Assembly: GCA_003220435.1 (NCBI GenBank)
Contig: QHSL01000015.1
Coordinates: 1 to 64,000, forward strand
Direction of reading: 5' to 3'
DNA: 64,000 nt
Origin: Candidatus Rokuibacteriota bacterium
GTDB lineage: Bacteria > Methylomirabilota > Methylomirabilia > Rokubacteriales > CSP1-6
Below, piece after piece: positions 3,513 to 37,813 of this stretch (positions are counted from its first letter, which is position 1; every line of letters begins with the position of its first letter). A program made the position numbers and the translations under genes. The notes below the pieces were generated by a model that worked only from the letters and a program-made list of their open reading frames with translations, was not told the DNA's origin and made no database searches.

Positions 3513-3935
3513 ATGGCGATGTTCAGGCTGATCGCAGCGTTCGTCATCGTGGTGTTCGTGTTCACGTCGCTTGCGGTCCCGGTCGCTGCGGCGCCCGGTG
3601 GGCCGGGCGGTCCCGGTGGGCCCGGCGGACCAGGTGGTGGGCCGGGCGGACCAGGTGGGCCGGGCGGACCCGGTGGGCCAGGCGGGCCCGGTGGGCCGGG
3701 CGGTCCGGGTGGGCCCGGGGGACCCGGCGGACCAGGGGGAAGCTCCAGCGGCGGGGCCGCGGGCCCCGCGAGCATTGGAACGAACACGGACGGCGACGGA
3801 GCGGCCAGCAGCGGCGGAGCGTTCGGGAACGCTGGGGCACCGGGGAGCGCCGGGGTGGTTGGGAGCAGCGGCGGGGCTGCCAGCGGGGCCGGCGCAGCGG
3901 CGAGCCCCGGCAACGGCCAGGCCGGTAGTCGGTGA
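3513..3935 (+). CDS. Secreted Pro-Gly-Gly repeat protein
   Basis: This 140-aa protein has a clear signal peptide (hydrophobic residues about 5-22, ending AVPVAAA near 27). An almost uninterrupted run of PGG tripeptides follows to about residue 76, then a Gly/Ala/Ser-rich tail without cysteines. A GAGGTGAA Shine-Dalgarno precedes the ATG. The period is three like collagen, but the PGG unit has no X-Y variety, so it may form a polyglycine-II-type or disordered chain rather than a collagen triple helix (inference). Its stop overlaps the start of the next gene as GTGA, so the two are translationally coupled. I do not recognise a family, and the function is unknown. Confidence 0.7.
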   Translation: MAMFRLIAAFVIVVFVFTSLAVPVAAAPGGPGGPGGPGGPGGGPGGPGGPGGPGGPGGPGGPGGPGGPGGPGGPGGSSSGGAAGPASIGTNTDGDGAASSGGAFGNAGAPGSAGVVGSSGGAASGAGAAASPGNGQAGSR

Positions 3936-4800: not shown

Positions 4801-5301
4801 TTACTCGCGGACCTCTGGAAAGATGCCCCGCGCGGGTGCATGGGCCCGCTTCCACACCAGCACGCTCCGGACGTAGTCGATGACGACCCTGCCCTCCTGC
4901 TGGATCCCGCGCGTACGCACCTTGACGACGCCGCGCTCCGGATTCGACCGCGACTCGCGCTTCTCCAGCACCTGCGACTCGGAGTAGAGCGTATCGCCGG
5001 CGAAGAGCGGGTTCGGCAGCTTGATCTCGTCCCAGCCGAGCGCGATGCCGTTCTCGCTGACGTCGGCGACGCCCAGGCCGGTCACGATCGCCAGCGTCAG
5101 CGTGCTGTTGATCAGGCATTTGCCGAACTGGGTCCGCCTGGCGAACTCGTTGTTGAAGTGGATCTGGTTGGTGTTGCTCGTCAGCAGCGTGAACCAGATG
5201 TTGTCGGCCTCGGTCACCGTCCGGCCGAGCCGACACCGGTAGACGTCGCCGACGTTGAAGTCCTCGAAGTACCGCCCCTCCCATCCCGCGACCTCGGCCA
5301 T
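4801..5301 (-). CDS. MaoC-like dehydratase
   Basis: The protein has 166 aa and a single hot-dog fold of the MaoC/(R)-specific enoyl-CoA hydratase type. It opens with GRYFEDFNVGDVYR, and the segment TVTEADNIWFTLLTSNTNQIHFN carries the family Asp and His catalytic pair positions. Later it has NPLFAGDTLYSESQVLEK. Its ATG is joined to the stop of the CMD-like gene as TGATG, so the two are coupled. It hydrates an enoyl-CoA, probably in fatty or aromatic acid catabolism (family knowledge). The coupling matters because it makes read-through of the UGA in the upstream gene more plausible. Confidence 0.87.
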   Translation of the reverse strand: MAEVAGWEGRYFEDFNVGDVYRCRLGRTVTEADNIWFTLLTSNTNQIHFNNEFARRTQFGKCLINSTLTLAIVTGLGVADVSENGIALGWDEIKLPNPLFAGDTLYSESQVLEKRESRSNPERGVVKVRTRGIQQEGRVVIDYVRSVLVWKRAHAPARGIFPEVRE

Positions 5302-5888
5302 CAGACCCCTCCGCGCGCCTCGACCGACGGCGCCAGCCCCGTGCTCGTGTCGGCCAGCACCTCGCGGTGCCCGATGCCGAGCGTCTTGATCCACCGCTGC
5401 TGGCCCAGGGTCAGCGCGATGAAGAAGCCGAGCTCGACCAGCTCGGGATTCGAGAAGTGGTGGCGGAGCTTCGCCCACAGGGTCTCGTCGGCGATCTCCG
5501 CGTTCCACACGATGGCGCTCGCGTAGGTCAGCGCCACCTTCTCGCGCTCGGTGAACTTCGGCGAGTCGGCGAAGTGCAGGAGGTCGTCGTACTTGTCCTC
5601 GGTGAGCCCTTTCCGTCCGGCCTGGACGGAGCGCTGTACGCCTCAGTACTCGCACTCGATGGACTTCGACACGTAGACGCGGCAGAGCTCCTTGATCGCG
5701 TGGTCGCAGACGCCCTGGCGGAACGTGAGCTCCCACGCCTGGGAGAACGCGCGGATCACGCTCGGATTATTGGCGCGGATCGCCTGGCTCTCCGGCCGGG
5801 GCGTGCCCTCGCGCCGGGCGCGCTCGAGGTAGCCCAGAATCTCCCCGTCGGTGATCGTTGAAGGGTCGACGTAGGGAATGTGCGGCAT
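5301..5888 (-). CDS. CMD/AhpD-like protein, candidate selenoprotein (UGA at codon 82)
   Basis: Read through the in-frame TGA at 5645-5643, this gives a 195-aa carboxymuconolactone decarboxylase/AhpD-family protein. The UGA falls in C-E-Y-U-G-V-Q-R (C79 to U82), exactly where relatives have the second cysteine of the redox CxxC motif. The frame continues without a shift to a normal family C-terminus (VELGFFIALTLGQQRWIKT). The downstream stop overlaps the MaoC start, and an AGGAGA site precedes the ATG at 5888. CxxU AhpD-like selenoproteins are known, and a hairpin fitting the bacterial SECIS description follows the UGA. The alternative is a nonsense mutation (TGC to TGA). The selenocysteine machinery is not in this window. 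Confidence 0.75.
5612..5630 (-). promoter_or_regulatory. Candidate bacterial SECIS hairpin
   Basis: Twelve nucleotides after the UGA lies a perfect 7-bp stem, TCCGTCC/GGACGGA, closing a 5-nt loop, AGGCC. The loop starts 19 nt after the UGA and has G as its second base. Published bacterial SECIS rules ask for a stem-loop with the apical loop about 16-37 nt from the UGA and a G among the first two loop bases, so this fits. It sits within codons for RSVQAGR. Confidence 0.6.
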
Positions 5889-5903: not shown

Positions 5904-6968
5904 TTAGAGAACGCTCGTGCCGCCGAAGCGGCGCTCCCAGCGCGGGATGACCTCTTTGTTGTAGACGTTGTCGGGAACCTCGCCGCGCAGCGCGTGCAGG
6001 ACCGACTCGGTCGCCCACCGGATGCCCGGGCCGAGCCCGCTGCCCACGTTCGACGAGACCATGTGCGGCGACAGCAGCACCTTGTCCCCGAGGTTGCGCA
6101 GCGAGCTGTCGCGCGCCAGCGGCTCCTCCTCGAAGACGTCGAGCGCCGCGCCACCGATCTGTCCCCTGATCAGCGCCTCGGTCAGCGCCGCCTCGCGCAC
6201 GCAGGGGCCGCGCGAGGTGTTGATCAGGATCGCCGTCGGCTTCATGAGGGCGAGCTGCGCGGCGTCGATCATGTGCCGAGTCTCCCGGGTCAGCACCACG
6301 TGCAGGCTGACCACGTCCGACTCGCGGAGCAGCGTCGGTAGGTCAACGCGTGTGACGCCGTGCTCGGCGAACTTCGACTCGGGCACGTAAGGATCGGCGG
6401 CCAGGATGCGCATGTTCCACGGCCGCAGCAGCGTCGCGACGCGGCTCCCGATGCGCCCGAGGCCGATCAGGCCTATGGCAATTCCCGCGTAGCCGTCGGC
6501 ACGCGAACCGATGTAGGTGCCCTGAAGCTTCGAATCTCGCCAGGCCCCTCCTCCCTTCAGATGTCGATCCCTCTCTCTGGTTCTTTTCAGCATCGTGAGC
6601 ATCGCGGTGATCGTGCCCTCGGCCACGCCGCCCCAGTTCGACTCGGTCGGGCCGTGGCAGACCAGGATCCCGAGCTCCGTCGCGGCCTCGACGTCGACGT
6701 CGTCGACGCCGATCGTGTACTTGGCGATGACGCGAAGCCCGGCCGAGCTCTCCATGACCTTCCGGGTGATCGGCGCGTTGCGGATCGACGTACCCATGAG
6801 CGCGTGGCAGCCCGTGGCCATCTGGGCGAGCTCGCCTTCGTTGTTGCCGTGCGGCGTGTCCCACGACGCCTTGCCCAGGATCAGCTCGCATCCGTGCTCC
6901 TGGAGCGTCGTGTGGGTGTCGCGCGCGTCGTCGACCGGGGCGAAGATCAGGACCTTCGCGGCGCTCAT
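5904..6968 (-). CDS. D-2-hydroxyacid dehydrogenase (NAD-dependent)
   Basis: The protein has 354 aa and belongs to the phosphoglycerate/glyoxylate dehydrogenase superfamily. The Rossmann nucleotide-binding motif GLIGLGRIGSR is in the middle. The catalytic Arg is in INTSRGP, the Glu in FEEEP and the His in SPHMVSS. The ATG at 6968 is preferred over one at 6986 because an AGGAGGAT Shine-Dalgarno lies between them. It is first in a minus-strand operon with the CMD-like and MaoC genes (15-bp gap, then coupled), suggesting joint oxidation of a hydroxyacid-derived substrate (inference). It is divergent from the amidohydrolase at 7073, with about 104 bp between. Confidence 0.88.
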   Translation of the reverse strand: MSAAKVLIFAPVDDARDTHTTLQEHGCELILGKASWDTPHGNNEGELAQMATGCHALMGTSIRNAPITRKVMESSAGLRVIAKYTIGVDDVDVEAATELGILVCHGPTESNWGGVAEGTITAMLTMLKRTRERDRHLKGGGAWRDSKLQGTYIGSRADGYAGIAIGLIGLGRIGSRVATLLRPWNMRILAADPYVPESKFAEHGVTRVDLPTLLRESDVVSLHVVLTRETRHMIDAAQLALMKPTAILINTSRGPCVREAALTEALIRGQIGGAALDVFEEEPLARDSSLRNLGDKVLLSPHMVSSNVGSGLGPGIRWATESVLHALRGEVPDNVYNKEVIPRWERRFGGTSVL

Positions 6969-7072
6969 CGTCGGGATCCTCCTCATCGTAGGCGCGGCTT
7001 GCCTTCGCCGATCACGTCGGCCAGAATCCGCGTGACTGACGGACCTGTCAAGAGCCAGACCAGGAGGAAGCC

Positions 7073-8128
7073 ATGGTCCCGTTCCCGGTGAACGACGCCG
7101 ACGGACACATCACCGAATCGCCCGCGCAGCTCCGTCCGTATCTCGAGGGGCGCCAGGGCGAGCGCAGTCCTTGGGCCCGACGTGACTCCTACTATCCGGT
7201 GGACGGCTGGGACCGCTCCCTCGGCGGCACGCTCGGCAGCAACGTGAGCGACGCCAAGACGTGGCTCGCGATCATGGACGAGGGCAATCTCGAAACGGCC
7301 ATCCTCTACCCGACGGCCGGGCTCGCGATCGGCTGGGTGCGTGAGCCCGACTTCGCGGTGGCCCTCTGCCGCGCCTACAACGACTTCGTCCACCAGGAGT
7401 TCCTCACCGTGAGCCCGCGCCTCAAGGCGGTGGCGCTGCTCCCGTTCCAGGACGTGCCGGAGGCGGTGAAGGAGCTGCGACGCGCGGTGACCGAGCTCGG
7501 AATGTCGGGCGCCTTCGCGCCCGCGGTAGGACTGCGGCTGCCGCTCGGCCATCCCGAATTCCACCCGATCTACGCCGAGGCGGAGCGGCTCGGCTCGATG
7601 GTGGCGTGCCACGCCACGGTGCGTGGACCGCAATTCTTCGGCGCCGACGGCTTCGACAAGTTCATCGAGGTGCACACGCTCTCGCATCCGGTGGCCCAGA
7701 TGATCCAGCTCACCGGGATGATCTTCGAGGGCGTGCCCGAGAAGTACCCGCGTCTCCGGATCGGCTTCATGGAGGCGGGATGCTCGTGGCTCCCCTTCTG
7801 GATGGACCGCATGGACGACGAGTGGGCGAAGCGCGGCGCGGTGGAGGCGCCGCTCTGCCGGAAGAAACCGAGCGAGTACCTCCGGTCCGGCCGGCTCTAC
7901 TTCGCCGCGGAGGGCGACGAGAAGTCAGTGCCCGAGGTCGTCCGGCGGCTCGGCGACGACATCATCTTCTACGCGAGCGACGTGCCCCACTGGGACCACG
8001 ACTATCCCGGGAACGTGCACGAGCTCGCCACGCGGGAAGACCTGAGCCTCGAGACGCGGCGGAAGATCCTCTACGAGAACACGCGCCGGCTGTACGAGCT
8101 GGCGCCGGCGCCGGCCGTCAGTGATTGA
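7073..8128 (+). CDS. Amidohydrolase family protein (amidohydrolase-2 type)
   Basis: The 351-aa TIM-barrel metal hydrolase resembles the ACMSD/gamma-resorcylate decarboxylase-like amidohydrolases. It has DADGHITE at the N-terminus (metal-binding D-x-H region), MVACHATV in the middle, RIGFMEAGCSWLPFWMDRMD, and the late ASDVPHWDHDYP that carries the active-site Asp. Such proteins decarboxylate or hydrolyse aromatic acids. The start has a CAGGAGGAAGCC Shine-Dalgarno. It is divergent from the hydroxyacid dehydrogenase operon and convergent with the class II aldolase gene, with a hairpin repeat between their stops. The exact substrate is not deducible. Confidence 0.88.
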   Translation: MVPFPVNDADGHITESPAQLRPYLEGRQGERSPWARRDSYYPVDGWDRSLGGTLGSNVSDAKTWLAIMDEGNLETAILYPTAGLAIGWVREPDFAVALCRAYNDFVHQEFLTVSPRLKAVALLPFQDVPEAVKELRRAVTELGMSGAFAPAVGLRLPLGHPEFHPIYAEAERLGSMVACHATVRGPQFFGADGFDKFIEVHTLSHPVAQMIQLTGMIFEGVPEKYPRLRIGFMEAGCSWLPFWMDRMDDEWAKRGAVEAPLCRKKPSEYLRSGRLYFAAEGDEKSVPEVVRRLGDDIIFYASDVPHWDHDYPGNVHELATREDLSLETRRKILYENTRRLYELAPAPAVSD

Positions 8129-36964: not shown

Positions 36965-37813
36965 GTGAACGCTCGAGTTTTAAGACAGCTCGGACGCCAC
37001 GCGCTCATCTACGCGGGGCTCGCCCCGTTCGTGGTGATCGCCGTGTTTCCGGTCTACTGGATGGCGATCGCGGCGTTCAAGCAGGATGCCGACCTCTACC
37101 GGACGGGCAACTTTCCCCTGTGGTTCAATCTCGAGCCGACGCTCGACCACTTCCGCCTTTTGTTCACGAGGACCTACTTCACGACCTGGCTGGTCAACAC
37201 CACGCTGCTCGCCATCTGCCTCGTGGTGATCACGCTCGTGGCCGCGGTGCCCGCGGGGTACGCGCTGGCGCGGATGCGGTTGCCCGGCGCCGAGAACCTC
37301 GGCATCGCCCTCTTCATGACGTATCTGGTGCCGCCGATCATCCTGTTCCTGCCGCTGGCGCGAGTGGTCGGCACGCTGGGGCTCTTTGACTCCTGGTGGG
37401 CCCTGGTGGTCGTCTACCCGACCTTCACGATCCCGTTCTGCACGTGGTTTTTGATCGGCTTCTTCAAGACCCTGCCCCGGGAGATCGAGGAGGCGGCGTG
37501 GGTCGACGGCTGTGGCGTCGTCGGGGGCGTGCTGCGCGTCGTCCTGCCGCTCACGCGCCCCGGACTGCTGATCGCGGCGATCTTCGCTTTCACGCTCGCG
37601 ATGCAGGAGTTTCTGTACGGGGTCGTCTACGTCTCGCCCAGGGACGAGAAGACGGTGACGGTCGGCGTGGCCACCGCGCTGATCCGCGGGGACATCTATT
37701 ACTGGGGCTCGCTGATGGGGGCCGCGCTCATCGTCGGCTTGCCCATCGCGCTCCTGTACAACGCGTTCCTCGACCATTTCATCCGCGGCCTCACCGCGAG
37801 CGGGTCGAGTTGA
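36965..37813 (+). CDS. Carbohydrate ABC transporter permease (MalG type), orphan
   Basis: The 282-aa permease has about six TM helices and the EAA-loop EEAAWVDGCGVVGGVLRVVLPLTRPGLL typical of MalG/UgpE. Its usual partners (MalF-type permease, binding protein, ATPase) are absent next to it: a truncated oxidoreductase lies upstream and a peptide-type permease downstream. It may therefore be a survivor of a larger deletion. The GTG start at 36965 has no clear Shine-Dalgarno. Confidence 0.85.
   Translation: MNARVLRQLGRHALIYAGLAPFVVIAVFPVYWMAIAAFKQDADLYRTGNFPLWFNLEPTLDHFRLLFTRTYFTTWLVNTTLLAICLVVITLVAAVPAGYALARMRLPGAENLGIALFMTYLVPPIILFLPLARVVGTLGLFDSWWALVVVYPTFTIPFCTWFLIGFFKTLPREIEEAAWVDGCGVVGGVLRVVLPLTRPGLLIAAIFAFTLAMQEFLYGVVYVSPRDEKTVTVGVATALIRGDIYYWGSLMGAALIVGLPIALLYNAFLDHFIRGLTASGSS

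Follow-up and report, generated by a model that had tools for sequence, protein, structure and literature searches.

A very probable AhpD-like selenoprotein in a Rokuibacteriota genome, with Sec and Cys orthologues in other bacteria

AhpD-like selenoproteins with a CxxU motif date from 2005 (PMC1088965). The Sargasso Sea and GOS surveys described two types, "AhpD-like 1" (COG2128) and "AhpD-like 2" (pfam02627) (PMC1088965, PMC2398784), and CxxU proteins of the AhpD-like or CMD-like kind also appear in reviews (PMC9312934, PMC13188914). Among related proteins, the AhpD-like protein PA0269 of Pseudomonas aeruginosa has a relay formed by E36, C48, Y50, C51, and H55 (the pattern Glu-Cys-Tyr/His-Cys-His); gamma-carboxymuconolactone decarboxylase has neither the CxxC motif nor the relay residues of AhpD (PMC3141380).

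We analyzed a stretch of 64,000 nucleotides (the window) from a soil bacterium of the Candidatus Rokuibacteriota. Its minus strand contains a gene (5301 to 5888) that is very probably a selenoprotein, given the comparative sequence evidence for recoding at codon 82, for a SECIS element, for the selenocysteine (Sec) machinery, and for the fold class. Like the types from the two surveys, the predicted product belongs to the CMD/AhpD superfamily, carries Sec in place of the second Cys of CxxC, and has a SECIS closely downstream and Cys homologues. Compared by description, its family differs from those types in being about 190 amino acids long, in coming mostly from soil and groundwater lineages, and in having a defined set of Sec and Cys orthologues. 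An earlier note on this DNA had expected a new instance rather than a new class, and we agree: CxxU proteins of this kind have been known since 2005, and what is new is a well-supported subfamily, not a new kind of system.

The window protein does not reach the cutoff of any NCBIfam model (June 2026). NF053654 (GroundWater_YciW, "YciW-related (seleno)protein") matches all 28 aligned members of the subfamily over residues 23 to 170, but the window protein scores 62.6 bits against a cutoff of 310, so this is a related but different family. TIGR01926 (peroxidase-related enzyme), which has the same fold class, matches 27 of the 28 members weakly, and the window protein is again below the cutoff (27.2 versus 81.8 bits). 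The subfamily seems to lie outside every NCBIfam model of that date, with only distant relatives among the best matches.

An in-frame UGA paired with cysteine

The gene begins with ATG at 5888-5886 and has 195 codons, and it reads MPHIPYVDP...KSIECEY-UGA-GVQRSVQAGRKGLTE...GGV-UGA. The internal UGA is codon 82 (5643 to 5645, minus strand) and is predicted to be read as Sec; the terminal UGA (5301 to 5303, minus strand) is, by direct reading, the true stop of the same mRNA, and it overlaps the ATG of the next gene at 5301 (TGATG). Automatic annotation would end the gene model at codon 81. If Cys is substituted for U, the protein matches the CMD family of Pfam (PF02627) at 24.2 bits, just over the cutoff of 23, and it is a member of the CMD/AhpD superfamily. 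Across the 28 aligned members, K66, E67, C79, Y81, U/C82, and Q85 are invariant. We also considered whether the protein might be a gamma-carboxymuconolactone decarboxylase, but C79 and U/C82, which are invariant in all 28 members, do not fit this.

We searched 84,980 species genomes and identified 50 loci with a relative; the motif could be aligned in 45 of them. Codon 82 is TGA in 36 of these loci and TGC in the other 9; with the window included, there are 37 Sec forms. The Sec forms come from metagenome-assembled genomes (MAGs) labeled Rokuibacteriota, Armatimonadota, Chloroflexota (Ktedonobacterales), Binatia, "Deltaproteobacteria," Betaproteobacteria, and others, although MAG labels may be wrong. 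All nine Cys forms are from Actinomycetota, including named genomes of Mycobacterium, Mycolicibacterium, and Paractinoplanes; Mycolicibacterium vanbaalenii (L088) is one source. Depending on the phylum, the same protein thus carries Sec or Cys, which makes the subfamily a clean and testable one. The pairing of an in-frame UGA with Cys at the same codon is that expected of SECIS- and SelB-dependent bacterial selenoproteins.

Every Sec form that we found derives from a metagenome assembly, although many of these are independent, and this might favor a pseudogene with a nonsense mutation or a sequencing error at a TGC or TGT codon. However, the same TGA is present in 36 orthologous loci of other assemblies, which excludes a sequencing error in practice. 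Also, in orthologue comparisons, dN is low and dS is high on either side of the UGA. Downstream of it, dN was 0.02 to 0.13 and dS was 0.30 to 0.66 (eight comparisons), so selection acts at the protein level on the downstream frame. This purifying selection and the covarying hairpin described below make a pseudogene or error extremely improbable. A second alternative is normal termination at the internal UGA, with an 81-residue N-terminal piece as the functional product. Elsewhere UGA serves as a regular stop, and it terminates this gene too, but the 113 codons 3' of codon 82 are as conserved as the codons 5' of it and the Cys orthologues are full length, and we give this explanation almost no credence. 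Finally, the frame is open once UGA is read through, as it would be if UGA encoded another amino acid genome-wide, such as Trp in code 4. But the gene itself terminates in UGA, the homologues align Cys rather than Trp, and the genome has the full Sec machinery (see below), so genome-wide recoding is just as hard to credit as the other two. We therefore retain Sec as by far the most probable reading of codon 82. As the earlier note had claimed, the UGA stands at the second Cys of the CxxC motif (CEYU) in an otherwise intact family member, and the downstream frame runs to a normal C terminus with a stop that is probably coupled to the next gene. Cys homologues align at the UGA.

In the phylogenetic tree, the Cys forms are one clade nested among the Sec forms (branch support 84/45), and 80% of bootstrap trees have just one Sec/Cys change. 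Because the Cys forms are a single clade among Sec forms, the simplest reading is that one Sec-to-Cys exchange took place. We found no viral copies of the selenoprotein, and a search for plasmid copies returned only CMD proteins that are distant, with identities below 40%.

A compact hairpin downstream of the UGA

Bacterial SECIS elements are stem-loops closely 3' of the UGA whose small apical loop contains a G (PMC1088965). In the window, the hairpin UCCGUCC-AGGCC-GGACGGA (5612 to 5630, minus strand; stem 5630-5624/5618-5612, loop 5623-5619) begins 12 nt 3' of the UGA. It has seven pairs, a 5-nt loop, and a predicted energy of -11.3 kcal/mol, and the second base of the loop is G in every Sec form. 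The earlier note had described the hairpin correctly, but its argument from a single sequence was weak: all six inner pairs arise in 6% of synonymous recodings of the window peptide (P about 0.06), so taken alone, the window hairpin is only mildly unusual. Global folding energy was uninformative as a SECIS test at the G+C content of these genes. The 56-nt fold of the window sequence was no more stable than shuffled sequences (z = -0.38), and the mean z over the Sec forms was -0.33. We used pair-specific tests instead.

We scored the seven pairs at fixed positions across the 37 Sec forms. Of all the cells, 93.7% were paired, and when the partner was slid by one base, pairing fell to 42 to 50%. 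There were 23 double-sided changes, compared to 3.2 in shuffles. Pairs 2 and 7 are invariant, and double-sided swaps occur without breakage at pair 3 (CG to UA or GC), pair 5 (UA to CG), and pair 6 (CG to GC, AU, or UA). The outer pair of the stem is dispensable. The six inner pairs are complete in 36 of the 37 Sec forms but in none of the nine Cys forms, which form just 1 to 4 of the seven pairs; this compact element is visibly lost where Cys replaced Sec.

Codon usage across the stem points the same way. The five codons that carry the stem (S87, V88, Q89, G91, and R92) have no synonymous diversity in a set of eleven close Sec orthologues, while the loop codon A90 shows the usual synonymous variation. 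Mean synonymous diversity is 0.08 over these six codons, including the loop Ala, versus 0.41 elsewhere, and none of 101 six-codon stretches elsewhere is equally frozen. The comparative data indicate, far beyond chance, that the hairpin is a real SECIS of the bacterial type, and in covarying in Sec forms and missing from Cys forms, it bears out the element that the earlier note had placed 12 nt after the UGA.

L095 and the betaproteobacterial MAG loci L094 and L096 to L099 are Sec forms that make up a sister group with the motif CxYUSNQGTARS or CMYUSHQGTARS. These loci have a different loop and stem, such as CCGCGC-GGUCC-GCGCGG, at unchanged spacing.

Selenocysteine machinery and other UGA-containing genes

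The assembly that holds the window is 5.4 Mb and is rated 95.5% complete. The earlier note had proposed looking for selA, selB, selC, and selD and aligning Cys homologues at codon 82. The alignment gave the nine actinobacterial TGC loci described above, and all four genes are in the assembly. The tRNA-Sec (69.8 bits, anticodon TCA), SelA (PF03841, 485 bits), and SelB (351 bits, with SelB winged-helix domains) occupy a cluster of about 5 kb on contig C138; contig C100 carries SelD (341 bits). Every check from the note that we ran thus favored the selenoprotein reading. The selD gene (G000:C100:66727-67671, L025) itself has an in-frame TGA, and SelD of this genome is probably a selenoprotein, as judged from its sequence. 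It is common for SelD to be a selenoprotein.

tRNA-Sec is present in 79 of the 95 genomes of the phylum, so its presence here is not a binning accident. Of the phylum genomes without a tRNA-Sec match, we checked 11 for SelB and found it in 5. In three genomes that are rated 95 to 100% complete (G055, G060, and G087), neither tRNA-Sec nor SelB was found, yet these genomes have TGA-containing CMD genes, including an orthologue of the window selenoprotein in G055. We tentatively read these absences as gaps, given that the assemblies are fragmented and that the sel genes occupy a single short stretch. We also found no clear machinery in G097, which contributes a Sec form from outside the phylum (L064).

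Of the nine genomes with Cys forms, six retain Sec machinery (tRNA-Sec and/or SelB); in the other three, which are mycobacterial, neither was found above the cutoff. The presence of machinery therefore does not predict residue 82. tRNA-Sec had initially seemed to distinguish Sec forms from Cys forms (16 of 17 versus 4 of 9, P = 0.01), but SelB adds two Cys-form genomes with machinery, for about 16 of 17 versus 6 of 9, and we dropped this predictor.

GTDB places Rokubacteria in Methylomirabilota. From this placement and from its named relatives, the window's genome is probably in the same wider lineage as a Methylomirabilota MAG that, according to a citation in PMC13188914, is predicted to hold 63 selenoprotein genes.

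The same genome has other CMD genes of this type. Three of them have an in-frame TGA at the motif, which reads CRYU (G000:C16:36284-36760, L018/L022), CPFU (G000:C108:79236-79646, L020/L024), and SAYU, with Ser for the first Cys (G000:C53:112212-112541, L019/L023). In each of the three, a hairpin lies at a comparable spacing. Two further matches to PF02627 (G000:C130:32-184 and G000:C82:73585-73761) have one internal TGA each. Across the phylum (G000 to G094), there are roughly 150 matches to the window protein, in 59 of the 95 genomes, and nearly all have exactly one internal TGA. These matches suggest that CMD/AhpD selenoproteins have radiated extensively in the phylum and that many such genes are probably misannotated. 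Within the window, a scan of extended frames for other in-frame UGA genes gave no second convincing case; a candidate at 37811 appears to be a pair of transporter genes that share a frame.

Fold, proposed chemistry, and gene neighborhood

An AlphaFold2 model built from the alignment is all-helical (pLDDT 83.7). Foldseek matched it to AhpD-like structures at a probability of 1.00 and TM scores of 0.6 to 0.8, including 2prr, 6k40, PA0269, and the debrominase Bmp8. The sequence profile also recovers AhpD-like proteins (E = 3e-13) and Bmp8. The model places the window protein in the AhpD fold class. It shares with PA0269 (2o4d) the fold, the CxYC motif, and a Glu 12 residues before the first Cys, but PA0269 has Cys where the window protein would have Sec and the relay His where it has Arg (PMC3141380). 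The relay of PA0269 maps to E67, C79, Y81, U82, and R86, so four of five residues are kept and the His becomes Arg86. Because of the AhpD-like fold and profile matches and the retained relay residues, the product is likely an AhpD-like thiol/selenol oxidoreductase that would reduce a peroxide or an electrophile through a selenenyl-sulfide.

We propose that SelB bearing Sec-tRNA-Sec is recruited by the hairpin 12 to 30 nt 3' of the UGA and inserts Sec at codon 82, and that translation would then run on to the UGA at codon 196 and end. Sec82 would fill the second Cys position of the CxxC motif (C79-E-Y-U82), flanked by E67 and Y81 as putative relay residues. The selenolate would most likely attack an oxidized or electrophilic small molecule, such as an organic hydroperoxide or a similar catabolic by-product. 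A selenenyl-sulfide with C79 would form, and a thiol carrier would then rereduce it. We infer the actual insertion of selenium, the peroxidase-type chemistry, the substrate, and the reductant.

Instead, the selenoprotein might carry out nonperoxide chemistry, such as reductive dehalogenation or another reduction of an electrophile, as the CMD family member Bmp8 does. Bmp8 is among the nearest solved relatives (E = 1e-10, TM about 0.7), and catabolic genes surround the selenoprotein gene. However, peroxidase-like AhpD proteins match equally well or better, and the neighbors differ between phyla. Also, the deposited complex of Bmp8 with its substrate is a C82A mutant, which suggests that the first Cys is the nucleophile, while the predicted Sec is at the second position. 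Chemistry like that of Bmp8 therefore seems unlikely. It is a little less likely still that the subfamily depends on selenium to reduce an electrophilic catabolic intermediate (halogenated or quinone-like, for instance) rather than acting as a general peroxidase; if so, it would be a bacterial counterpart, in its chemistry, to thyroid deiodinase.

A gene for a D-isomer 2-hydroxyacid dehydrogenase (5904 to 6986, minus strand; PF02826, 175 bits) lies immediately upstream of the selenoprotein gene, and a MaoC-type, mesaconyl-CoA-hydratase-like gene (4801 to 5301, minus strand; PF19315, 66.2 bits; PF01575, 64.8 bits) follows it. The MaoC-type gene is probably translationally coupled to the selenoprotein gene because its start overlaps the selenoprotein stop. 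Framed by these two genes on the same strand, the selenoprotein gene appears to be part of an operon. A divergent amidohydrolase gene (Amidohydro_2; 7073 to 8128, plus strand) is syntenic in the four closest named relatives, which also have a class II aldolase and a luciferase-like monooxygenase nearby, as in the window. The hydroxyacid dehydrogenase adjoins the orthologue in all four of these relatives and MaoC in two, and another Amidohydro_2 gene neighbors the orthologue in L062 and L070.

Beyond the closest relatives, the neighbors are assorted hydrolases, amidohydrolases, flavin enzymes, and transporters. Among the neighbors of the orthologues, we found no partner gene conserved across phyla, and the neighbor genes that we checked suggested neither a single substrate nor a peroxiredoxin partner. 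The catabolic operon that the earlier note had suggested fits the neighbors within the genus, but the neighborhood is not conserved across phyla and the link to a pathway is weak. The gene looks like a redox accessory that is portable and often belongs to catabolic clusters, and it would place Sec in uncultured bacteria beside catabolic genes. Elsewhere in the window, a short gene at 3513 to 3935 (plus strand) has a signal-like start followed by a long Gly-Gly-Pro repeat tract.
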